DNA of 64,000 bases from Bradyrhizobium sp. Tv2a-2 (GTDB lineage: Bacteria; Pseudomonadota; Alphaproteobacteria; Rhizobiales; Xanthobacteraceae): contig NZ_AXAI01000004.1 in assembly GCF_000472425.1 (NCBI RefSeq), forward strand, positions 186,001 to 250,000. Reading direction: 5' to 3'. Positions 15,112 through 38,627 of the stretch are shown here, piece after piece. How positions within the stretch are numbered: the stretch's first letter is position 1; each line of letters opens with the position of its first letter. A program made the translations under genes and the position numbers. The notes under the pieces are model-generated. The model saw nothing but the letters and a program-made list of their open reading frames with translations. It was not told the origin of the DNA and ran no database searches.

Positions 15112-16590
15112 ATGACCGTGCATTTCCCCTTCCAGAACACTTATGCGGCCCTGCCGGCGAATTTTTTCGCCCGCGTGGCCCCGACGCCGGTCGCCGCCCC
15201 CCGGCTGATCAAGCTGAACCGGCCGCTCGCGATCCATCTCGGGCTTGATCCTGACATCCTGGAGTCGCCGGAAGGGGCCGAAATCCTGTCCGGCAAGACC
15301 CTGCCCGGCGGCGCCGACCCGATCGCTATGGCCTATGCCGGCCACCAGTTCGGCCATTTCGTTCCCCAGCTCGGCGATGGCCGCGCCATCCTGCTCGGCG
15401 AGGTCATCGACGGAGACGGTATCAGGCGCGACATCCAGCTCAAGGGGTCCGGCCCGACGCCATTCTCGCGCCGCGGCGACGGCCGCGCCGCCCTCGGCCC
15501 CGTGTTGCGCGAATATGTGGTTAGCGAGGCCATGGCCGCGCTCGGCATTCCCACCACGCGTTCGCTTGCCGCCGTCGTCACCGGCGAGCAGGTGATGCGC
15601 GAGACGGCCTTGCCCGGCGCGGTGCTGACCCGCGTGGCCTCGAGTCATATCCGCGTCGGCACCTTCCAGTACTTTGCCGCGCGCGGCGACGTCGAGGCGC
15701 TGCGCAGCCTCGCCGATCATGTCATCGCGCGCCACTATCCGGAGCTTCTTGCAACAGAGCGGCCCTATCAGGGCCTGCTCTCGGCCGTGATCGCGCGGCA
15801 GGCAAAACTCGTCGCGCGCTGGCTTCTGGTCGGCTTCATCCATGGCGTGATGAACACCGACAACACCTCCATTTCCGGCGAGACCATCGACTATGGCCCC
15901 TGCGCCTTCATGGATAGTTACGATCCCGCGCAGGTCTATAGCTCCATCGACGAACTCGGCCGTTACGCCTATGCCAATCAGCCGCGCATTGCACTGTGGA
16001 ATCTGACGCGCTTTGCCGAGTGCCTGCTGCCGCTGTTCTCCGACGACAAGGACAAGGCCGTCGAGGAGGCCCAGACCCTGCTGATGACGTTCGGCGAGGA
16101 GTTCAACCTCCACTACACGACGGGGCTGCGTGCCAAGCTCGGCCTGTTCGCCGAGCATGAGGATGACCAGGGTCTGGCGCAGGCGCTGCTGGACGAAATG
16201 GCCAAGGGCGCGGCCGACTTCACCCTCACCTTCCGTCGCCTCAGCGAGGCGGCTGGCGATCCCGAGGCCGACCGGAACGTGCGCCAGCTCTTCACCGAGC
16301 CGGAGGCCTATGACGCCTGGTCTGAGCGCTGGCGGCAGCGGATCGGCCAGGAGCCGCAATCAGCAAACCAACGGCAGGCCCTGATGCGCGCCGTCAACCC
16401 GGCCTTCATTCCGCGCAACCACCGCGTGGAGGCCATCATCAAGGCAGCGGTGGACGGCGACGATTACCGTCCGTTCGAAGAACTGCTCACCGTGCTGTCG
16501 AAGCCCTATGAGGACCAGCCGGAGTTTGCGGCCTATGCCGAGCCCCCGCGGCCCGAGGAGCGGGTCTGCCAAACGTTCTGCGGGACCTGA
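15112..16590 (+). CDS. selO: Protein adenylyltransferase SelO (YdiU)
   Basis: SelO is a pseudokinase-fold enzyme that transfers AMP from ATP to Ser, Thr or Tyr of target proteins and is linked to redox stress. The 492 residues carry [19 protein letters not shown], the nucleotide-binding [20 protein letters not shown], and [25 protein letters not shown] (about 244-268) with the metal-binding Asn/Asp residues. The tail ends VCQTFCGT, placing Cys490 third from the end, where eukaryotic SELENOO carries selenocysteine. ATG 15112 fits the family start; upstream in-frame ATGs overlap the aspS start region. Confidence 0.92.
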
Positions 16591-29568: not shown

Positions 29569-30720
29569 TCAGGCCGGCACGGCAGCACGACCCGCGCGGT
29601 TGCGCGCGATGATGGTCTTCATGATCTGGGCCGTGCCGTCGCCGATCTGGAAGCCAAGCACGTCACGCAGCCGCTGCTCCATGGGGCCGCGATCATAACC
29701 GCCGTGGCCGAACATCAGCAGGCACTCGTGCACGACGTCGTAGGCGAGCTTCGGCGCCCACCATTTGCACATGGCAGCCTCGGCGCTGTGTGGAGCATCC
29801 TTGTCTTTCAGCCAGAGCGCCTGCAGACACAGCAGCCGCGCCGCCTCGACCTGCGTGTCGAGCCCGGCAAGCGGATGCGACACGCCCTGGAAGGCGGACA
29901 ACGGCTTGCCGAATGCATGACGCTCGGCGACATAGGCCCAAGTTTCCTCCAGGGCAACGCGCGCCACGGCAAGCACCTGCAGCCCGATCAGGGCACGCGA
30001 AAAATCGAAGCCCTGCATCACCTGGATGAATCCGGCATTCTCCTCGCCGAGACGATGCGACACCGGCACGCGGACGTTCTCGAAGAAGATGGAGCCGCGC
30101 CCGATGGCGCGCTGGCCGTGACAGTCAAAGCGGTTTCGCGTCACGCCAGGCAGGTCCATGGGAACGAGGAGAGCCGTGATGCCGCGTGCGCCTGAATCAG
30201 CCGTGCCCGTGCGGCCGAACACCACGGCGGCATCGGCCTGATCGGCGGCGGAAATCGACGTCTTCTCGCCATTGATGACGTAGTCGTTGCCAGTCCGCTC
30301 GACCTGGAGACGCAGGCTTGCGGCGTCCGAGCCGCCGCGCGGTTCGGTCAGGGCGAGTGCCAGCAGCGCCTCGCCGCGGATCAGACGCGCAAGCCACGGG
30401 CCGACAATGTCGGGGCGGCCGTGATGCGACAGGATCTGGCTGTTCAGCGATCCCAGCAGATTGATGTAAGACAGACTGAGGTCGGCGCGGGCGATCTCCT
30501 CATGGATGACGCCGGCGGCAAGGCAGCCCAATCCCAGGCCGCCGAAGCGTACCGGCAGCTCCGGGGCGATGAAGCCCATCTCGCCCATTTGCCCCATCAG
30601 CCCGCGGTCCAGGACGCGCGAGCGGTCGCGCTCCTGGAAGCCGGGCGCGATGCGATCGGTTGCGAACCGTCGCGCCTGTTCACCCAGTGCGACCAGATCT
30701 TCATCCAGGTAAGGATTCAT
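29569..30720 (-). CDS. aliB: Cyclohexanecarboxyl-CoA dehydrogenase
   Basis: The 383-residue acyl-CoA dehydrogenase oxidises cyclohexanecarboxyl-CoA to the 1-ene. The FAD-binding fold is clear (LALTEPRGGSDAASL, NGEKTSISAADQAD, GFDFSRALIGLQVLAVARVALEE, RHAFGKPLSAFQGV). In the region where many family members have the catalytic Glu (YEGT), this protein reads IGDGTAQIMK, so an Asp sits there. GGGAGG precedes ATG 30720. It lies between badI and aliA. Confidence 0.85.
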   Translation of the reverse strand: MNPYLDEDLVALGEQARRFATDRIAPGFQERDRSRVLDRGLMGQMGEMGFIAPELPVRFGGLGLGCLAAGVIHEEIARADLSLSYINLLGSLNSQILSHHGRPDIVGPWLARLIRGEALLALALTEPRGGSDAASLRLQVERTGNDYVINGEKTSISAADQADAAVVFGRTGTADSGARGITALLVPMDLPGVTRNRFDCHGQRAIGRGSIFFENVRVPVSHRLGEENAGFIQVMQGFDFSRALIGLQVLAVARVALEETWAYVAERHAFGKPLSAFQGVSHPLAGLDTQVEAARLLCLQALWLKDKDAPHSAEAAMCKWWAPKLAYDVVHECLLMFGHGGYDRGPMEQRLRDVLGFQIGDGTAQIMKTIIARNRAGRAAVPA

Positions 30721-30787
30721 GAGGTACCTCCCGATGCATGATCGCGGGCCGCCTTGAGGCGGCCGCTAATGATCCCGGCATTCCCTG

Positions 30788-31570
30788 CTATTTGGCGAAT
30801 TTGCGGAAATCGGGCTTGCGCTTTTCCTTCAGCGCCGTGACGCCTTCGCGCGATTCCTCGGTGTCGTAATAGAGCTTGAGCGCATACATGCCCATGCCGG
30901 CGATACCAGCCTGGTGTGCGGTATCCATGTTGAAGCTGCGCTTGGCGATGGCGATCGCGGTGGGGCTGCGCTCGCAGAGCTCCTCGCCCCATTTCTGGAC
31001 CTCGGCATCGAGCTGGTCGTGCGGCACGCAGGCGTTAGCCAGGCCCATCGCCACCGCTTCCTGACCGCTGTAGCGCCGGCACATGTACCAGATCTCGCGG
31101 GCCTTCTTTTCGCCGACCGCGCGCGCCAGAAATGCCGTGCCGTAACCGGGGTCGACGGACCCCATCTTGGGGCCGACCTGGCCGAAGATGGCCTTTTCCG
31201 AGCAGATCGTCAGGTCGCAGATGGTGCAGAGTACGTTGCCGCCCCCGATGGCAAAGCCCTGAACACGCGCAATCACCGGCTTTGGCACGTCCCGTATCGC
31301 CGTATGCAGTTCTTCGATCGGAAGGCCGATCGTCCCCCGGCCGTCATAGTTGCCGTCATGCGCCGACTGGTCGCCGCCGGTACAGAACGCGCGGTCGCCG
31401 GCGCCGGCCAGTACGATCGCGCCGATGGTCTTGTCGTAACCCGCCCTGTGGAGCGCCTTTATCAGTTCGTCGCAGGTCCGGCCACGAAAGGCGTTCATCT
31501 TGTCCGGCCTGTTGATGATGATCCAGGCAACGCCGTTGCGAACCTCGTAGATGATGTCTTCGAATTGCAT
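30788..31570 (-). CDS. badI: 2-ketocyclohexanecarboxyl-CoA hydrolase
   Basis: BadI opens the ring of 2-ketocyclohexanecarboxyl-CoA to pimelyl-CoA. The 260-residue crotonase-fold protein is, from memory, nearly identical in pattern to R. palustris BadI: FCTGGDQSAHDGNYDGRGT, VQGFAIGGGNVL, FGQVGPKMGSVDPGYGTAF, and FNMDTAHQAGIAGMGMYALK. It also resembles naphthoate synthase (MenB), but the bad/ali context settles the role. A strong AAAGGAGG lies upstream, and it starts 21 bases after badH ends. Confidence 0.92.
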   Translation of the reverse strand: MQFEDIIYEVRNGVAWIIINRPDKMNAFRGRTCDELIKALHRAGYDKTIGAIVLAGAGDRAFCTGGDQSAHDGNYDGRGTIGLPIEELHTAIRDVPKPVIARVQGFAIGGGNVLCTICDLTICSEKAIFGQVGPKMGSVDPGYGTAFLARAVGEKKAREIWYMCRRYSGQEAVAMGLANACVPHDQLDAEVQKWGEELCERSPTAIAIAKRSFNMDTAHQAGIAGMGMYALKLYYDTEESREGVTALKEKRKPDFRKFAK

Positions 31571-31591
31571 TTGATCCTCCTTTGCTATTGG

Positions 31592-32359
31592 TCAGCCGTT
31601 CATGGTGAGGCCGCCGGACACGCTCAGGACCTGGCCGGTCACATAAGCCGCGTCCTCGCTTGCGAAGAACAGGATGGCGCCGGGCAGATCCTCGGGCTGG
31701 CCGATGCGCGCAAGCGGGATCGACCGCTTGAACGCCTCCAGCAGCTTTTCCGGATTGCCGACGCCTTGCTTGTAGTCGGCAAACAGTGCCGTATCGGTTG
31801 GGCCAGGGCAGACGACGTTCACGGTGATGCCGTGACGGGCATGCTCGCGCGCAATCGTCTTCGAGAACGCCACCAGGCCGCCCTTGCAGGCGGCGTAGAC
31901 CGCCTCGCCGGACGAGCCGACGCGCGCCGCGTCCGAGGAGATGTTGACGATGCGGCCCGATCTGCGTGCCACCATGCCCGGCAGCACGGCGTGGTGCATA
32001 TGGAGTGCACCGACGAGGTTGATGGCAATCAGCTTCTCCCATTGCGCCGGCACGGTCTTGGTGAAGGGAAGGAAGACATCCCAGCCTGCATTGTTCACCA
32101 GAACATCGGCAGGGCCCAGTCGGGATTCGGCGGCGGCGATCGCCGCGTCGACGCTGGCCCTGTCGGTGATATCGCAGCGATACGCTTCCGCCGTGCCACC
32201 CTCGCTCCGGATAGAGCCAACGACCTTTTCCGCGGCGGCTTGATCGAGATCGAGGACGGCAACCCTCGCGCCTTCACGCGCGAACCGGCGACAGGTGGCA
32301 CCGCCGATGCCCCCGCCGCCGCCCGTAACAATGACCATCTTGCCGTTGAAACGCGTCAT
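31592..32359 (-). CDS. badH: 2-hydroxycyclohexanecarboxyl-CoA dehydrogenase
   Basis: BadH oxidises the 2-hydroxy intermediate with NAD. The 255-residue short-chain dehydrogenase has TGGGGGIGG (12-20) for cofactor binding, NNAG (VLVNNAGWD), and the catalytic Ser, Tyr and Lys in SSDAARVGSSGEAVYAACKGG. ATG 32359 has GGGAGG about 4 bases upstream; the longer frame to 32446 runs over the operator. It is the first gene of the operon badH-badI-aliB-aliA and is divergent from badR. Confidence 0.92.
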   Translation of the reverse strand: MTRFNGKMVIVTGGGGGIGGATCRRFAREGARVAVLDLDQAAAEKVVGSIRSEGGTAEAYRCDITDRASVDAAIAAAESRLGPADVLVNNAGWDVFLPFTKTVPAQWEKLIAINLVGALHMHHAVLPGMVARRSGRIVNISSDAARVGSSGEAVYAACKGGLVAFSKTIAREHARHGITVNVVCPGPTDTALFADYKQGVGNPEKLLEAFKRSIPLARIGQPEDLPGAILFFASEDAAYVTGQVLSVSGGLTMNG

Positions 32360-32441
32360 GACACCTCCCGATTTTGTCCGGCCTTTCACCGGCCCGTCGT
32401 CGCGTCGTTTGGCAGCGCTCTTGCACTCTCGCGCGATATAT

Positions 32442-32455
32442 GACAATATATTGTC
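32442..32455. promoter_or_regulatory. Perfect 14-bp palindrome, candidate BadR operator
   Basis: GACAATATATTGTC lies in the 130-base gap between badH and badR start codons. It is self-complementary over its full length and AT-rich in a GC-rich background, as expected of a MarR-family site. It probably overlaps one or both promoters. Confidence 0.7.
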
Positions 32456-32489
32456 CTATTAAGTCGACGAACACAAGAGGAAAGATTCG

Positions 32490-32996
32490 ATGATCGACCT
32501 CGGCGAGGACGTAACGGATCGTTCGACAGAGCCATCGGTACGGCTGGAGCTGGCGAACCGCTTGTTCTTTCGCCTCTACCAATGCGCCAATATGTTGCAT
32601 AAAACCGGAAGCCGCGCCGTCGAGGCGGAAGGCCTGACCACCCAGCAATGGGCCATCCTCGGGGCGCTGTCCCGCCAGGAGGTTCAGCGCGGCATGAGCA
32701 TCGGCGATCTCGCGAAATATCTGATGGTCAGCCGGCAGAACCTCGCAGGTCTCATCGGCCGCATGGAGCGGGACGGCCACGTCTCAATCGTGACCGACTC
32801 GCGCGACCGCCGTTCACGGATCGTGACGATGACGAAATCCGGACGGCGCGTCTGGCACATTCAGGCCCAGCCGAAAATCCGCGCCTATTACGAAGAGGTG
32901 CTTGCGGATTTCTCGATCAACGACGTCACCCACACCCTGCACTATCTGCTCAAGATACTTGGAGCCATGCAGCGATTGGACCGCGGACCGGATTGA
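32490..32996 (+). CDS. badR: MarR family regulator of alicyclic acid degradation
   Basis: The 168-residue winged helix protein has the MarR layout: an N-terminal dimer helix (LANRLFFRLYQCANMLHKTG), TTQQWAILGALS, the recognition helix MVSRQNLAGLIGRMERDGHV, and a wing with DSRDRRSRIVTMTKSG. BadR of R. palustris represses the badH operon until a pathway CoA thioester binds; the same is inferred here from identical placement. AGAGGAAAG precedes ATG 32490. Confidence 0.85.
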   Translation: MIDLGEDVTDRSTEPSVRLELANRLFFRLYQCANMLHKTGSRAVEAEGLTTQQWAILGALSRQEVQRGMSIGDLAKYLMVSRQNLAGLIGRMERDGHVSIVTDSRDRRSRIVTMTKSGRRVWHIQAQPKIRAYYEEVLADFSINDVTHTLHYLLKILGAMQRLDRGPD

Positions 32997-33642
32997 AGCG
33001 CGTATCCCGCGATCGGAGTGGACCACGCACGCGTTTCCTTCAGGGCTATTCCAGCGGTTTTCCGAAAACGATTTCGCTCATGACAAACCGCCGCCAGCTA
33101 CGGTGGCATCGGCTGCGAGCTTTAGTCACGCGCTGGAGCACGGACAGCTCAGTTACCGATGTAGTCCAAATTCTCTGGCTTTTGTCAGGCCGGCATCGGA
33201 TGTTTCGATGCTGTAAACCGGAGGCAGAGACGTGCCCTACGCTGGTGTCAACGGCCAACAACATTATTGCGAAGATCCGGGCGGATTCGGTTCGCCGATC
33301 GTCTTCTCGCACGGTGCGCTACTTGCGTGGGCACGGAATGAGCGCGGCAGAACCCGGCAGCGGCCGAACGATCTCAGGGATTCGTGGGTTTTCCAGCGGG
33401 AGTTCGGCCGGCCGAAGTTGGTCAAAATCAGCGAATGACGAATGTCTGTCGGGGTCAAAATGCGCTGTTTTGGACATTTCCCAGCCTCCTCCAAAAGCGG
33501 CTATCCGTCGATCCCGTTCATGAAGATGAATGGGAACTCAATGAAATGTTTCGCACTTTTGGCACAGGGAACTCTTGCGCACCGGCTTCGCTGAGGGCAC
33601 CCTAGCCTAGCGCTTTCACAGGTACTTACGGAGGATGCGACC
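32997..33642. other. Decayed intergenic stretch downstream of badR
   Basis: About 650 bases with no intact gene. It holds the truncated hydrolase start at 33232. GGTCAAAAT occurs at 33420-33428 and 33453-33461 (33 bp apart), and the second copy is followed by a GCTGTTTTGGACA string; repeated near-end motifs like these are found at IS21-type element ends, but no transposase is present. Confidence 0.4.
33232..33330 (+). pseudogene. Truncated alpha/beta hydrolase N-terminus
   Basis: From a GTG with GGAGG 8 bases upstream the frame reads MPYAGVNGQQHYCEDPGG and GSPIVFSHGALL. This is the recognisable first strand and oxyanion HG motif of alpha/beta hydrolases. Similarity ends after about 33 residues and the frame stops at 33438 with unrelated sequence. 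No nucleophile elbow is present, so this is a remnant. Confidence 0.6.
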
Positions 33643-34182
33643 ATGCGACGGGTCAAGCAAGCTTCGAAGCAGAAACGCACAACCAAGGCCGCCGCCGCGA
33701 AGGTATTGGGCGCGGCCGGACTTGGTCTTTCGCTGATCGGTAGCGCATCCGCATCCACGATGCCCACCGCTGATATCCCGCAATCCGACCATACATCGCC
33801 TAATCAGCGCTTCGTTCTTGGCGAAGAGGAAATGGCCGATGTCAGTCTCGCCACGTTCCATCTCTTCGACAGGGAAAACGTCGGCAGCGCCATACAGCTA
33901 GCCCGCGGATGTGGTGGTTGCGGCTGCCACGGTTGCGGCGGTGGCGGCGGCTGCCGAGGTTGCGGCGGTGGCGGTTTTGCCGGCTGCCGAGGCTGCGGCG
34001 GTGGCGGCTTCGTCGGCTGCCGAGGCTGCGGCGGTGGTGGCTTCGTCGGCTGTCGAGGCTGCGGCGGCGGCTGTGGCGGCGGCTGTGGCGGCTGGGGGCT
34101 CGGTGGTTGGTTCCTTGTCTGCGCGGGCTGCGCCGGTTGCGCGGGCTGCTGCGTATCCTGGGGCGCGTGCCGCCTGTGTTAA
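33643..34182 (+). CDS. Cys/Gly-rich repeat protein with signal-like leader
   Basis: A strong GGAGG lies about 7 bases before ATG 33643. The 179-residue product has three parts. Residues 1-38 are basic then hydrophobic (KVLGAAGLGLSLIGSASAS), a signal-like leader. Residues 39-87 are acidic and non-repetitive (FVLGEEEMADVSLATFHLFD). From residue 88 the sequence is almost only Gly and Cys with Arg, Phe and Trp, including three copies of an 11-residue unit CRGCGGGGF(A/V)G and a tail ending VSWGACRLC. About 24 Cys are present. A RiPP precursor, a metal-binding secreted protein or a disulfide-rich surface protein are all possible. No maturase gene is adjacent. Confidence 0.7.
   Translation: MRRVKQASKQKRTTKAAAAKVLGAAGLGLSLIGSASASTMPTADIPQSDHTSPNQRFVLGEEEMADVSLATFHLFDRENVGSAIQLARGCGGCGCHGCGGGGGCRGCGGGGFAGCRGCGGGGFVGCRGCGGGGFVGCRGCGGGCGGGCGGWGLGGWFLVCAGCAGCAGCCVSWGACRLC
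33949..34062 (+). repeat. 33-bp in-frame tandem repeat, about 3.5 copies
   Basis: Units start at 33949, 33982 and 34015, each GGCTGCCGAGG(T/C)TGCGGCGG-type, with a partial fourth from 34048. They encode the 11-residue CRGCGGGGF(A/V)G units. The copies differ by only a few mainly third-position bases, which suggests recent expansion or gene conversion. Confidence 0.75.
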
Positions 34183-34544
34183 GTCCCACGACCTGACGTC
34201 CGCCATCACCAAGTAGCCAAGCCGGGCCTACGGAGGCGTCGGCTCGCCGCTGGGATCGATCGTCGGTTCCGCCTTCATCATTTTCGTGCTCGACATCGCG
34301 GACCGGATCAGCAAGCGCCTGTCGCACACCGGCGTCTGGCGCGCCTCCGTTCCTAGTCATCTACCTCGTACGAACGGCGGAAGGCAGGTCGTCGACACGA
34401 TCGGTTCGGCCCATCCGAGCAACGGTCGTCGAGCGCGATCACGCCAAGCGGACTGCCGGAGCCATTTTGGATCTTCAGCGGCGTAGTCACGATGATGGCA
34501 CAATGACCGGAAGGTCGGATACGTCCCGATGGACGCGAGGAACG
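34183..34544. other. Intergenic stretch with a possible membrane protein remnant
   Basis: Between the Cys/Gly-rich gene and the next gene, bases about 34229-34351 read in one frame as YGGVGSPLGSIVGSAFIIFV and then LDIADRISKRLSHTG. This hydrophobic segment looks like the end of a small membrane protein, but there is no start codon or ribosome site in front of it. The rest is featureless. Confidence 0.3.
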
Positions 34545-34919
34545 CTATTTGATCGTAGCGTGCACAGTGACGACCGACGTCCCCGAAGCCGCCTGCCCCT
34601 GACCCGTTGCTTTGATGGCAAAAGTATCGCTTCCCTTGTATCTGGCCTTCGCCGTGTATTCGTAAGTCGTCATGTTGAGCTTTTTCAACTTGCCGTGCTC
34701 CGGCTTCTGTGAGACGTCCGAGCCGCTCACGCCGCGTTTCCTGATTGGAAATAGGCAACTTGCCCCGGATCTGAGGTCAATGTAGCCGGCCGAGTTCTGG
34801 CCCCAATCCGCTAGCGTTACCAATATCGAACAATCAGAAGCGGCGCGCGCGAACGACGCGGACGTTACGTTTGCTGCTCCCACGATAAGCGCCAAGGCGC
34901 CGAATTTAGACAACCGCAT
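34545..34919 (-). CDS. Small secreted protein with Ig-like or cadherin-like C-terminus
   Basis: The 124-residue product starts MRLSKFGALALIVGAANV and has a signal peptide ending SFARA-ASDC. The mature part has PEHGKLKKLNMTTYEYTAKARY and KGSDTFAIKATGQG, then SVVTVHATIK, the strand pattern of short Ig-like/VCBS-type domains. Two Cys may form a disulfide. GAGGAGG precedes ATG 34919. Function is unknown; a surface or periplasmic location is likely. Confidence 0.65.
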   Translation of the reverse strand: MRLSKFGALALIVGAANVTSASFARAASDCSILVTLADWGQNSAGYIDLRSGASCLFPIRKRGVSGSDVSQKPEHGKLKKLNMTTYEYTAKARYKGSDTFAIKATGQGQAASGTSVVTVHATIK

Positions 34920-35363
34920 AGTGGACCTCCTCGTTTTTGATTTCACTTGGGTCCCAAAGCGAGCGCTTTTCGGCCAAGCGCTCCCCGGCAGTCCATCCTG
35001 AGGGAGCATCATAATGGCATCGATATTTCATCGGGGCCTGTTCTGTACAGACTTCGCTCCTCGATAAGTCGATCTCATGGTTCACTCGGTCGTGGCGCGT
35101 GATTGAGCCGCGAAACACCACGACTTCGAAGCCATCGAGCCGCTTCAGGGCCCAATAGCCTCCATCATTCTGACCTTCGTCGAGGTGATCCCAATTGCCA
35201 GCGCCGCCGTAGATCTGAGCGCACAGATCCACGAGCGCGGTCGCTCGGAGGCGTCATTTCGGCTAACCGATGGTAAGGAGGTGATGATAGACTCGCTATC
35301 CGTCCGCACGTTCAGGCGGCGATAGTCGTTGTCGATTGCAAAAACATTGTACGTCGGGTCCAT
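34906..35363 (-). pseudogene. Lipase-like (class 3) gene remnant with frameshift
   Basis: Minus-strand translation begins MDPTYNVFAIDNDYRRLNVR and runs to about NDASE, near 35250. It then continues only in another frame as ATALVDLCAQIYGG, followed by NDGGYWALKRLDGFEVVVFRGSI, a segment typical of lipase-like proteins before the active site. Adding one base near 35250 would join the two parts. The downstream part ends at 34906 without a GHSLG serine elbow. The gene is therefore frameshifted and truncated. Confidence 0.6.
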
Positions 35364-35466
35364 CACATTGAGGTGAAGCCGTCGGCGATCCGCGATATCT
35401 CGTCGATGCAATCGATGATCTGCTTGCCCTTGAAGGACTGCAGTCTCTCAAGGAGCGTGGATGGCG

Positions 35467-36090
35467 TCACGCGTCCTGCAGCCCCTTCGAGAACAGCGAC
35501 GCCTCATGGCCGCGGCGCTTCCACAGGTCGCTGTTGACGGGCCAGAGCCTGCGCATGCCCAGGTACTCGGCTGGGATCTTGGCGAACTCCTTGGCCTCCA
35601 TGTGCGCCCTGATGTTGCGCATCTCGGTGTATCGAGGCCCGGCAAGATGAAAGCCGTCCGCGCCCCTGTTGTAGGCGAGGCTGTCGATTGCGCCGGCGCA
35701 ATCGCCCGGCAACAGGTCATAGTTCGGCAGCGCCGCGCGACACAGCTCCTCCCACTTCGGCAGCTCGCGCTGCATGAACTCCCCCATCGCCTGGTCCCAA
35801 GTGATGGTGACGCTCGATCCGTGCCGGCGAACGAAATCTGCAGCTGCAGCGCTCTTCAGTCCGGCAGCGCTGACCAGCGCGGCGATCATGTTGTCGGGGA
35901 TAATGCCTGCCCAGTCCTTGCGGATCTGGTCAGGCGTGGAGTAGCCGCAGTCGTAGCCGATGCCGACGGTCGGGCCCGAAGCGCCCTTCGGCCACTCGAA
36001 ATGAGTGTAGTGCTTGGTGTGGTAGGCCTGACCGCTGTCTTCCTCGGTAACGAGCTCGTCGATGCTGGCCTGTGACGCCTTGATGTTCAT
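35467..36090 (-). CDS. Phage-type lysozyme (endolysin-like glycoside hydrolase)
   Basis: The 207-residue product has the T4 lysozyme/pesticin-type start: Glu16 or Glu17 in ELVTEEDSGQAY, followed by GPTVGIGYDCGY (Thr41), matching the Glu-x-Thr-Gly-x-Gly active-site arrangement. The C-terminal half has CAGAIDSLAYNRGADGF, a muramidase-like helix. No signal peptide is visible, as in classical endolysins that need a holin. ATG 36090 follows a terminator-like hairpin, so the gene begins a new transcript. With the nearby remnants it suggests a degraded prophage or recruited lysis gene. Confidence 0.75.
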   Translation of the reverse strand: MNIKASQASIDELVTEEDSGQAYHTKHYTHFEWPKGASGPTVGIGYDCGYSTPDQIRKDWAGIIPDNMIAALVSAAGLKSAAAADFVRRHGSSVTITWDQAMGEFMQRELPKWEELCRAALPNYDLLPGDCAGAIDSLAYNRGADGFHLAGPRYTEMRNIRAHMEAKEFAKIPAEYLGMRRLWPVNSDLWKRRGHEASLFSKGLQDA

Positions 36091-36108
36091 GGGTCTTCTC
36101 AAAGAGAA

Positions 36109-36126
36109 AGCCGCCCGAAGGCGGCT
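36109..36126 (-). terminator. Terminator-like hairpin facing the lysozyme gene
   Basis: AGCCGCC (36109-36115) and GGCGGCT (36120-36126) enclose CGAA. Read on the minus strand the stem is followed by TTCTCTTT, a good intrinsic terminator. It would end a minus-strand transcript from higher coordinates, where no intact gene is now seen. Confidence 0.6.
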
Positions 36127-36659
36127 GTTGGGATGCGATCGCGCCTGATCAGGTTTGGTCGCGATTTCACTCTCAGGTTGAGATAGATTCAAATCACATT
36201 CATGAGGTGATCGTTGTTTTCGGTCTGACTCTCGTGCTTGGCGTCGCGGTAACGATGCTGTCTCGGAAATCACAGAGCGGTGATGCCTTGCTTAAGTTGC
36301 GCGGTCGCGCCGCGGCCCTATTCCGAGGATCGCTTGCAGAAGAACTTCGCCGAGGTGCGGGAACTTGCCTTTGGCAATGGGAGCGCCGACAGCTCGCCGA
36401 CATGCGCCGATCAGGGGGCCGTCGAGGGAGACGCCGACGGCGGCTCCATTACCGATTAATCGAACAAGATGGCGAATACCGTGGCCGCGAACAACCGGCC
36501 CCGGAAAGTCTACAACCCGGTGAACACCACCAGCGTTCGGCGGTTCGATGAAGCTAGTCTGGGGGCAAGAACCTAGAACAGAAAGCAGCCAAAAGGGTCA
36601 TATCGCCGCCCTTTATGACACTCATGAAATCAGGGAAACCTGCTAAGCCATTGAAATAA
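36127..36659. other. Gene-poor stretch before tRNA-Asp, possible phage remnant
   Basis: About 530 bases contain broken frames only. One plus frame at about 36318-36460 reads VAPRPYSEDRLQKNFAEVRE and then ends in TAA; the same frame resumes as SNKMANTVAANNRPRKVYNP to a TAG near 36576. These look like fragments of a phage or surface protein, but no family is recognisable. Confidence 0.3.
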
Positions 36660-36736
36660 TGGCGCGAGAGACGGGGCTCGAACCCGCGACCTCCGCCGTG
36701 ACAGGGCGGCGCTCTAACCAACTGAGCTACTCCCGC
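36660..36736 (-). tRNA. tRNA-Asp (GTC)
   Basis: On the minus strand a full cloverleaf reads from GCGGGAG at 36736 (acceptor stem pairing with CTCTCGC), through D arm AGCTCAGTTGGTTAGAGC, anticodon loop CTGTCAC with GTC, and T arm GCGGGTTCGAGCCCC, to an encoded CCA at 36660-36662. It is 77 bases long. Confidence 0.95.
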
Positions 36737-36953
36737 GGATGCAGTGAAGACCGCGTTCGAGCAGGGCTTAAAGGGGCCACCTTTCCAAGTCAAGCAGCTT
36801 GGACAAGTCCGCATTATCCGGCGGTTTTCGCGATGCCGATGCAGGAAATGCCCTGTTTTCAGGGCGAAGTGGCATAGTAGGCCCCAGCCGAATCGTCTAA
36901 GGCCTGAAAGTCTTAGGTTCCTAAGCCGTTCTTAACAACGAGGAGGGCCAAAC

Positions 36954-37253
36954 ATGGCGAAGAAAGCAGCTAGCCCGGCCACCATTACGCTCAAGCACCT
37001 TGCCGCGGCGATCGCCGAGGATCAGGAGCTGTCCAAGAAGCAGGCCGAAAGCATCCTGACCGACATGGTCACGCGGATCACCAAGCACCTGAAGAAGGGC
37101 GAACGCATCCGCATCGTTGGACTCGGCATCCTCCAGGTGCGCAAGCGCGCCGCCCGCATGGGGCGGAACCCGGCCACCGGCGAGCAGATCCAGATCAAGG
37201 CCAGCAAGAAGGTCGCCTTCCGCGCCGCCAAGGAGCTCAAGGAAGCGATCTAA
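36954..37253 (+). CDS. HU-family DNA-binding protein
   Basis: The 99-residue nucleoid protein has the HU/IHF fold: helices in ITLKHLAAAIAEDQELSKKQAESIL, then the beta arm region RIRIVGLGILQVRKRAARMGRNPATGEQIQIKASKKVAFRAAKELK with the RNPATGE/P-loop signature used to bend DNA. GAGGAGG precedes ATG 36954. In many alphaproteobacteria an HU gene follows lon and tRNA genes; here it lies 5 kb from lon and in the opposite direction. Confidence 0.92.
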   Translation: MAKKAASPATITLKHLAAAIAEDQELSKKQAESILTDMVTRITKHLKKGERIRIVGLGILQVRKRAARMGRNPATGEQIQIKASKKVAFRAAKELKEAI

Positions 37254-37373
37254 AAAGACCTCTCGCCTCGTCTATCGGCTTCGCGCCATTTCGAAGGTTT
37301 TTCGCGGCCCTCGGAATGGCATTTCTTTTTGTGGTATTGTTTCCCGATCCCCTCCAAGCCGCGGTTTTCGACT

Positions 37374-38627
37374 GTGTCCTCCTCTCTGCCGTTTCAGCAT
37401 AGCGTTACAGAGCGCTTCCTCCGCTACGTCACCATCGACACCCAATCCGATCCGGAGTCGCCGACCTGCCCCTCGACCGGGAAGCAGAAGGACCTCGGCC
37501 GCCTGCTCGCCGCAGAGCTGAAAGACATTGGCCTTGCCGACGCCCATCTCGACGAGCACGGCTATGTCTACGCAACGATCCCGGCTACGACGACCAAGAA
37601 GGTGCCGGTGATCTGCTTCTGCTCGCACATGGACACTTCGCCCGACTGCACCGGCAAGAACGTCAAGCCGCAGATCGTCAGGAACTACCAGGGCGGCGAC
37701 ATAACCCTGTCCGCCGATCCGAGCCAGATCATCCGCGCAGCCGAACATCCGGCGCTGCAGCAGCAGATCGGCCATGACATCATCACGACCGACGGGACGA
37801 CGCTGCTTGGTGCCGACAACAAGGCCGGCGTTGCCGAGATCATGGATGCGGCGCAGTTCCTGGTGCAGAACCCGCAGATCAAGCACGGCACGATCAAGAT
37901 ACTGTTCACACCCGACGAGGAGATCGGCCGCGGCGTCGACAAGGTCGACCTGAAGAAGTTGGCTGCCGATTTCGCCTATACGATGGACGGCGAGACTGCG
38001 GGCCAGATCGAGGACGAAACTTTCTCGGCCGACGCCGCTACCATCATCATCCAGGGCGTCAGCACCCATCCGGGCTTTGCCAAGGGCAAGATGGAGCACG
38101 CGATCAAGATCGCGGCAGCAATCATCGAGCAGCTGCCGAAGGACACCTGCTCGCCCGAGACCACCGAGGGCAAGGAAGGTTTCCTGCACCCGATCGGCAT
38201 CTCCGGCGCGCTGGAGCAGACAACGATCGGATTCATCGTGCGTGACTTCACCGTTGCCGGGCTGAAGCAGAAAGAGGCGCTCCTGGAGCGGATCGTCAAG
38301 GACGTGATGAAGGACTATCCGCGCTCCACCTACCGCATGGAGATCAAGGAGCAGTACCGCAACATGAAAGAGATCATCGACCGTCACCCCGAAACGGTCG
38401 ACTACGCGATCGAAGCGATCCGCCGCGCCGGGCTCACGCCGGAGCGCAGTTCGATCCGCGGCGGCACCGATGGCTCACGCCTCTCCTTCATGGGCCTGCC
38501 CTGCCCCAACATCTTCGCTGGCGAACACGCCTTCCACTCCCGCCTGGAATGGGTCAGCCGCCAGGACATGGAAAAGGCCGCCGAGACCATCGTACACTTG
38601 GCGATGATTTGGGAAGAGAAGTCGTAG
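37374..38627 (+). CDS. pepT: Peptidase T (tripeptide aminopeptidase)
   Basis: PepT is an M20B zinc aminopeptidase that releases the N-terminal residue from tripeptides. The 417-residue product keeps the metal ligands: His in FCSHMDTSPD, Asp in GADNKAGV, the Glu pair in PDEEIGRG, Asp in TMDGE, and His in GEHAFHSRLEW. The start is probably GTG 37374 (SSSLPFQHSVTERF follows), 120 bases after the HU stop; a TTG at 37329 would add an unlikely extension. Length agrees with E. coli PepT (408). Confidence 0.93.
   Translation: MSSSLPFQHSVTERFLRYVTIDTQSDPESPTCPSTGKQKDLGRLLAAELKDIGLADAHLDEHGYVYATIPATTTKKVPVICFCSHMDTSPDCTGKNVKPQIVRNYQGGDITLSADPSQIIRAAEHPALQQQIGHDIITTDGTTLLGADNKAGVAEIMDAAQFLVQNPQIKHGTIKILFTPDEEIGRGVDKVDLKKLAADFAYTMDGETAGQIEDETFSADAATIIIQGVSTHPGFAKGKMEHAIKIAAAIIEQLPKDTCSPETTEGKEGFLHPIGISGALEQTTIGFIVRDFTVAGLKQKEALLERIVKDVMKDYPRSTYRMEIKEQYRNMKEIIDRHPETVDYAIEAIRRAGLTPERSSIRGGTDGSRLSFMGLPCPNIFAGEHAFHSRLEWVSRQDMEKAAETIVHLAMIWEEKS

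Follow-up and report, generated by a model that had tools for sequence, protein, structure and literature searches.

The open reading frame at positions 33643 to 34182 of the 64,000-nucleotide stretch of Bradyrhizobium sp. Tv2a-2 DNA analysed here (the window) probably encodes a dispersed precursor of a Cys-derived thiazole RiPP of the TOMM/LAP type that is matured in trans; from sequence comparison, we put the probability of this reading at about 0.8. Taken part by part, it is very likely that the product is an azole RiPP precursor, likely that enzymes encoded on contig C20 of the same genome mature it in trans, and plausible that the mature product has an antibacterial function. The reading is based on a paralogue located directly upstream from the C20 enzymes, on the co-occurrence of precursor and enzyme within the genus, on a Cys-rich core with almost no Ser or Thr, on a shared upstream dyad, and on apparent purifying selection of the leader, also in copies away from the enzyme cluster.

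The frame was recovered as a real ORF in the sequence, the ORF list and the translation, and its parts are listed in Table 1. The N-terminus is basic, and residues 21-35 form the most hydrophobic 15-residue span of the N-terminal part (Kyte-Doolittle maximum, 1.74; family median for the same maximum, 1.66), followed by a small-residue SASAS stretch; by rule-of-thumb hydropathy, the leader appears signal-like. Residues 88-179 (92 residues) contain 44 Gly, a single Ser and all 21 Cys of the protein, and the 11-residue unit of this part corresponds to a 33-bp tandem repeat at 33948-34071 (3.8 copies, 91% matches). The ribosome site GGAGG is located 8 nt ahead of the ATG, and the stretch GGAGGATGCGACCATG is close to the consensus preceding other family members. 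The original prediction, made from this DNA alone, had described a signal-like N-terminus, a conserved acidic middle, a C-terminal half of Gly and Cys in 11-residue units, a distinct tail and a strong ribosome site. The repeat, the composition and the ribosome site are as described, and alignment and composition identify the N-terminus, the acidic middle and the tail as features of the whole family.

Table 1. Features of the precursor gene and its upstream region (window coordinates)
Feature	Position	Strand	Basis or remark
Precursor gene	33643..34182	+	179 aa plus stop
Hydrophobic, signal-like stretch, residues 21-38 (VLGAAGLGLSLIGSASAS)	33703..33756	+	Kyte-Doolittle
Conserved leader segment, residues 57-79 (FVLGEEEMADVSLATFHLFDREN), candidate enzyme-docking site	33811..33879	+	most constant leader block in alignments; docking putative
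Gly-Cys core, residues 88-168, with 33-bp (11-residue) repeats	33904..34146	+	repeat and composition
Conserved C-terminal end CCVSWGACRLC, residues 169-179	34147..34179	+	family comparison
Shine-Dalgarno sequence GGAGG	33630..33634	+	sequence; kept in the family upstream consensus
Dyad GTTCATGAAGATGAAT (GTTCAT-N4-ATGAAY), candidate operator, 112-127 nt before the ATG	33516..33531	+	exact match
Unit of about 0.7 kb common to dispersed copies in other genomes at unrelated sites	33491..34213	+	blastn; 3' limit varies

As originally stated, no maturation enzyme was recognised adjoining the window copy in the ORF list of 30000-38000; one adjoins the paralogue on C20. A scan of 33200-34700 for sigma-70 promoters and terminators found none, and the Rfam scan of the window detected three tRNAs and nothing else. 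The Pfam and NCBIfam profiles gave zero matches to the window protein at E<=1, a search in which the HMMER composition and speed filters could mask a weak NCBIfam match such as TIGR03601. Immediately behind the gene, a segment of about 160 bp (34231-34391) matches many Bradyrhizobium genomes at 74-79% identity; it encodes only a short ORF in the window and may be the remnant of a conserved gene. Farther along, a 268-aa ORF on the reverse strand (35467-36273), which by eye has the look of a phage-type lysozyme or endolysin, is located near a tRNA-Asp gene (36660-36736, reverse strand), and this region is possibly an island or prophage remnant.

Five paralogues were detected in this 8.5-Mb genome of 87 contigs, the window copy and those designated C16, C20, C4 and C2 after their contigs. 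The leader is common to all five, and the C-terminal end is kept in C16, C20 and C4 and lost in C2. The layout of the family consists of a basic N-terminus, a hydrophobic stretch, a motif of the GEEEMADVSLATFHLFD type, a Gly-Cys core and usually a CCxxWGxCRxC end; among 19 selected members that were aligned, conservation is highest in the leader motif, in the GCRGC core and in the tail. Members were found in 51 of the 117 Bradyrhizobium genomes sampled, where at most 30 first-look candidates per genome were scored (at most 11 in the order-level sample), so that absences are uncertain. A scan of named genomes gave 110 relatives; 73 of the 80 loci listed are filed as Bradyrhizobium, and the other seven are MAG contigs filed as Xanthobacteraceae (one), Hyphomicrobiales (two), Alphaproteobacteria (three) and Opitutaceae (one, on a contig of 3.7 kb and perhaps misbinned). 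A weak order-level match in G215 (L039; E 7e-4) was rejected as chance, its ORFs being without the leader motif and G215 without the enzyme at E<=1e-60.

For the family statistics, 88 precursors were taken from 87 loci (L165 holds two), with starts set by rule (Met then Lys/Arg) and not case by case; only non-identical proteins entered the protein comparison. The CCxxWGxCRxC sequence stands at the C-terminus of 53 of the 57 precursors from cyclodehydratase loci and of 27 of the 31 others, the latter including L094 and L116, which carry a VOC gene at a contig edge and are probably cut clusters. The absence of the tail in four of the 31 counts against the preferred reading; two of these four (L104 and L133) run off a contig end. 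In the members whose tail could be recognised (81), 11-21 Cys (median 16) are found in the core, and 865 of the 1279 core Cys are preceded by Gly. Leaving aside the last 11 residues, the core is free of Ser and Thr in 47 members, has one such residue in 27 and two in seven. The near absence of Ser and Thr together with the Gly-Cys pairs fits a Cys-directed cyclodehydratase. The C2 copy (L005) and L174-L179 form a sub-family with an intact leader and a nearly Cys-free, Pro-rich end (HRKKKPPHRT), present in several genomes and in three near-identical copies at different places in G053; judged from these sequences, it may have multiplied recently, possibly as a form that is dead or has taken on another use. 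At L165, a Hyphomicrobiales MAG, a second precursor-like ORF (15201-15620) without tail and with few Cys lies downstream of the VOC gene.

The maturation enzymes came to light through a distant homologue (L038) that adjoins a gene resembling one for a TOMM leader-binding protein, which prompted a search for YcaO genes in the own genome. Three were found, one of them on C20 just 3' of the C20 paralogue, and the cluster order there is precursor, a 783-aa fused protein and a 486-aa protein. The fused protein exceeds the curated cut-offs of TIGR03604 (224 versus 219 bits) and TIGR03882 (146 versus 37), and the 486-aa protein that of TIGR03605 SagB (168 versus 78); Pfam identified YcaO in the former, and ThcOx (PF22767) and nitroreductase in the latter. 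The solved structures closest to the cyclodehydratase are LynD (E 7.5e-145; aligned over residues 51 to 778) and TruD (E 4.2e-140), and also MusD, while those closest to the dehydrogenase are a SagB-type dehydrogenase and CyaGox (CyaGox E 1.4e-52). The same gene order was found in L046 and L047, two genomes from other families of the order. All but two of the 56 cyclodehydratase loci (54) also hold an azoline dehydrogenase gene, and both exceptions are cut by contig ends; a SagB/McbC-type azoline dehydrogenase is not required in every TOMM. Three of the features by which a TOMM/LAP system is recognised, namely a conserved leader with a Cys-rich C-terminal core, a YcaO cyclodehydratase with leader-binding/E1-like domain linked to the family (in trans for the window copy) and a SagB/McbC-type dehydrogenase over the TIGR03605 cut-off, are present. 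The original prediction had offered a RiPP precursor as one of two possibilities and had named radical SAM or thiol enzymes as neighbours to look for. The precursor arm is strongly supported by the YcaO cyclodehydratase and the SagB/ThcOx dehydrogenase; the recurrent neighbours proved to be azole-forming enzymes and not of the radical SAM or thiol type, and for the window copy they are encoded in trans.

Its other possibility, a Cys-rich secreted metal-binding or thiol protein, in which the peptide would carry no azoles, takes its appeal from the signal-like N-terminus and the 21 Cys of the window protein, but the family is constantly associated with a cyclodehydratase and an azoline dehydrogenase and the profile searches above matched no known metal-binding family at E<=1, and we regard it as very improbable. 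Even less credit is given to maturation by a second fused cyclodehydratase of the same genome, encoded on contig C3, which is related to the C20 enzyme (38% identity) and accompanied by a dehydrogenase. A candidate precursor of another leader type is encoded within the C3 cluster itself, and in the genus sample G062 and G094, the two other genomes that carry a 38-39% relative and no C20-type enzyme, show no precursor of the window family. This TOMM-like cluster (L053, 1643-6470) comprises a fused YcaO cyclodehydratase and a ThcOx/nitroreductase-type protein, and starts with a 352-aa ORF of about seven tandem, Ser/Thr-rich units of about 35 residues (GGTTFTAGSAFTSPTMGTIGTQGSIGAAGGSSSQLS type), by its sequence a candidate multi-repeat precursor of oxazole type. 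The third YcaO gene, on contig C1 (L054, 7636-8961; 173 bits to PF02624), stands alone beside a large regulator-like ORF.

The 51 precursor-bearing Bradyrhizobium genomes are the same 51 that carry a C20-type cyclodehydratase (>600 bits), and the remaining 66 have neither. This equality is partly built in because one precursor is part of the enzyme cluster, and for this reason, together with the relatedness of the genomes, the Fisher value of 2e-34 is not independent evidence. After merging 92 match rows into 87 precursor loci (match ends, not gene ends, were used), 50 were located 85-372 bp upstream from the cyclodehydratase on the same strand, and 37 elsewhere, distributed over 17 genomes, all 17 of which have the enzyme. 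No dispersed precursor without a cyclodehydratase in the same genome was found among the 117 genus genomes. One of the 37 non-adjacent loci (G028:C211) is probably an adjacent copy cut by a contig end, because it lies at such an end, the matching L116 carries a VOC gene and the G028 enzyme is at the end of a 3,072-bp contig; without it, 36 loci in 16 genomes remain, some of them partial or decayed. One in-frame stop was noted in each of six of the 51 enzyme matches (G002, G022, G058, G111, G113 and G115), and may reflect a non-coding N-terminal extension of the match or a broken gene.

Beyond the genus, the family-level sample of 198 genomes includes 23 with an enzyme match at E<=1e-60. Among the loci listed, 17 from other genera of the family hold close enzyme relatives, and 14 of these have a family precursor nearby; in the remaining three, the enzyme match begins inside the protein and there is no upstream flank. 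Both non-genus genomes with this enzyme type in the order sample of 297 genomes (G323 and G349) have a precursor, and G251 has a 39% enzyme relative with no precursor found in its locus.

The dispersed copies occur as a short unit. When the window was compared by blastn with 18 copy-bearing regions (17 distinct, L139 and L173 being the same stretch; L181 is probably the cut cluster of G028), 13 of which reach at least 8 kb on both sides of the copy, the match was confined to a segment that starts at 33491 and reaches 34213 at the farthest, and these regions gave no further window match above 150 bp. The 5' limit is exactly 33491 in 10 rows (nine distinct), and a search with 3 kb around the window copy reproduced this 5' limit in other genomes; several other copies have about 50 nt further upstream in common among themselves. 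A shared unit with unrelated flanks indicates copies at different sites, moved as gene plus promoter.

This distribution also speaks for a rival reading, in which the window copy has lost its function or is decaying, the paralogue beside the cluster is the only one in use, and the dispersed copies represent mobile or repeat-unit debris. Decay is indeed seen in the family: in the C2 copy and the sequences nearly identical to it, the tail and most of the Cys are gone, L180 is without a normal start, and G015 holds a 207-bp fragment of the start of the unit. The window copy, on the other hand, has kept its frame, ribosome site, leader motif, all core Cys and tail; the tail is kept in most non-cluster copies, as given above (27 of 31), and the leader dN/dS of the window copy is 0.15-0.50 against the 14 non-cluster copies closest in dS. 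We therefore consider decay of the window copy unlikely. Across the family, the median leader dN/dS is 0.23 for cyclodehydratase-locus copies (1181 pairs) and 0.37 for the others (400 pairs), with pairs limited to dS 0.05-1.5 and at least 50 codons. The leader thus appears to be under purifying selection in non-cluster copies too, in favour of the thiazole-precursor reading, while the higher value in these than in the cluster copies weighs against it. That the leader is non-random, as first argued from the window alone, is borne out by the dN/dS values of the window copy, by its four same-genome paralogues and by the members across the genus.

The aligned upstream regions of 56 cyclodehydratase-locus and 31 other copies (L138 was left out, its contig starting too close) have in common the ribosome site and the dyad. 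With at most one mismatch, the dyad was detected in 47 of the 56 cluster and 14 of the 31 other regions (13 of 29 without L094 and L116), as compared with 0.17% of 1740 mononucleotide shuffles and none of 87 stretches farther upstream, this last control covering 140 nt per region as against the 260 nt scanned for the dyad. Exact sites in the own genome are two, that of the window and one on contig C7, where no precursor or regulator was recognised in the ORF list of the surrounding locus (L213). A dyad with one mismatch precedes the C20 paralogue and the second one on C4; the copies on C16 and C2 are without a dyad. At one mismatch the dyad is not specific to the family, as the own genome contains 58 forward and 57 reverse sites versus five and six for the reversed-pattern control. 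The absence of the dyad from 17 of the 31 non-cluster and two of the five own-genome copies counts against the preferred reading, as does the location of the proposed enzyme more than a contig away from the window copy. Neither an exporter nor a leader protease came to light, which also tells against this reading. The sharing of the dyad could in part be explained by common descent of the upstream regions.

A gene for a VOC (glyoxalase/bleomycin-resistance) protein was found in 54 of the 56 cyclodehydratase loci, mostly divergent from and adjacent to the precursor, and behind the dehydrogenase in L047 and L165. The gene is missing from two loci; L138 is truncated where its contig ends, and L046 is a true exception at the E-value used. 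Pfam identified Glyoxalase/Bleomycin resistance protein in the three VOC copies tested, with the Ble-like_N cut-off passed by the L107 copy and not by the two others; the best solved relative is Rv0577. Since bleomycin is referred to as a thiazole-containing antibiotic in a passage of PMC10128002, a role of the VOC protein in immunity or product binding is the natural guess. Other neighbours are less regular: a carbamoyltransferase gene adjoins the L046 precursor, with relatives farther off in four Bradyrhizobium cluster loci, and an OpgC-like gene near 22 loci looks like shared neighbourhood.

The role of the product is the least certain step. Antagonism between bacteria is the most likely one, with about an even chance. 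Even if the peptide is azole-modified as proposed, it could instead be a signal, a metallophore or a symbiosis factor, an option within the thiazole reading that we hold for possible, at odds clearly below even: the genus lives in soil and nodules, and the neighbour families present in at least five loci include no recurrent set of exporters or proteases of the bacteriocin-cluster kind. Against it, the bleomycin-resistance-type VOC gene of nearly all cyclodehydratase loci fits self-protection, and antibacterial azole peptides are known, phazolicin from a rhizobium being one of them (PMC10128002).

For the thiazole RiPP that we favour, the following pathway is proposed. The leader segment LGEEEMADVSLATFHLFD would dock on the leader-binding region of the C20 fused cyclodehydratase, the YcaO domain of which would use ATP to convert Gly-Cys units within the core to thiazolines; the adjoining SagB/ThcOx-type flavin dehydrogenase would then oxidise these to thiazoles. 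The hydrophobic N-terminal stretch may serve export, and the VOC protein encoded beside the C20 cluster may bind the product for self-protection. A single enzyme set would in this way mature several scattered precursor variants. A bolder extension is that scattered, self-contained and mobile precursor cassettes with a secretion-type leader, each carrying its own dyad, promoter, leader and variable core, diversify an azole peptide; one LynD-like enzyme pair would act on all of these substrates, one dyad-binding factor would co-regulate them, and one VOC protein would give immunity to all. This extension is tentative, and was lowered from even odds to slightly less because the majority of non-cluster copies are without the dyad, which is unspecific at one mismatch. 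If true, polythiazole peptides form a reserve, in a common genus of soil and nodules, that is missed by mining around the enzyme alone, because 37 of the 87 loci, at most one of them through assembly, are not beside it. The precursors would then amount to a library of natural substrates for a single cyclodehydratase, the VOC protein would be a testable candidate for immunity, and the dyad, as a putative operator, could lead to the regulator. The system could also matter for competition among rhizobia.

Among known systems with solved structures, the cyanobactin enzymes LynD, TruD and CyaGox/ThcOx come closest to the C20 enzymes, which they match along most of the protein length. Cyanobactin clusters carry PatA/PatG-type proteases and short core cassettes, whereas the window family has one long core, and no protease or macrocyclase family recurs beside its precursors among neighbours in at least five loci. 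Phazolicin of Rhizobium sp. Pop5 is an azole peptide made with a YcaO cyclodehydratase and active against related bacteria (PMC10128002); compared by description, its eight azoles derive from Ser and Cys, whereas the core of the window family has up to 21 Cys and nearly no Ser or Thr. The TOMM precursor of B. japonicum from Lee et al. 2008, as cited by Haft 2009 (PMC2674419) among putative thiazole-containing bacteriocin precursors, is from the same genus and, by description, has Cys-Arg-Gly type repeats like those of the window family. It is probably the cluster-adjacent form of this family, which on the strength of that citation is apparently already known; the citing sentence includes nothing on dispersed copies, the dyad or the VOC partner. 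The main text of Cox et al. 2015 (PMC4603692), which describes TOMM families, is without the string 'rhizob', and in the literature covered, which included passages of the RRE-Finder report (PMC7470986) and of PMC8120280, no description of dispersed copies, dyad or VOC partner was found, which is weak evidence of absence. The closest parallel in organization is heterocycloanthracin (TIGR03601; Haft 2009, PMC2674419), the precursor of which is usually located far from the maturation operon and, as reported there, occurs whenever the operon does and never otherwise. Like the window family, it has Cys-Gly-rich repeats behind a conserved leader and distinct C-terminal ends. The window protein had no NCBIfam match at E<=1, TIGR03601 included. 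For heterocycloanthracin, leader binding is attributed to a separate F protein in PMC4603692, whereas in the window family it would reside within the fused protein (TIGR03882), the C20 protein being a full fused cyclodehydratase and not a truncated one accompanied by an ocin-ThiF-like protein. Unlike heterocycloanthracin, the window family usually has one copy per genome beside the enzymes. With these differences, heterocycloanthracin is the clearest precedent for a precursor distant from its operon.
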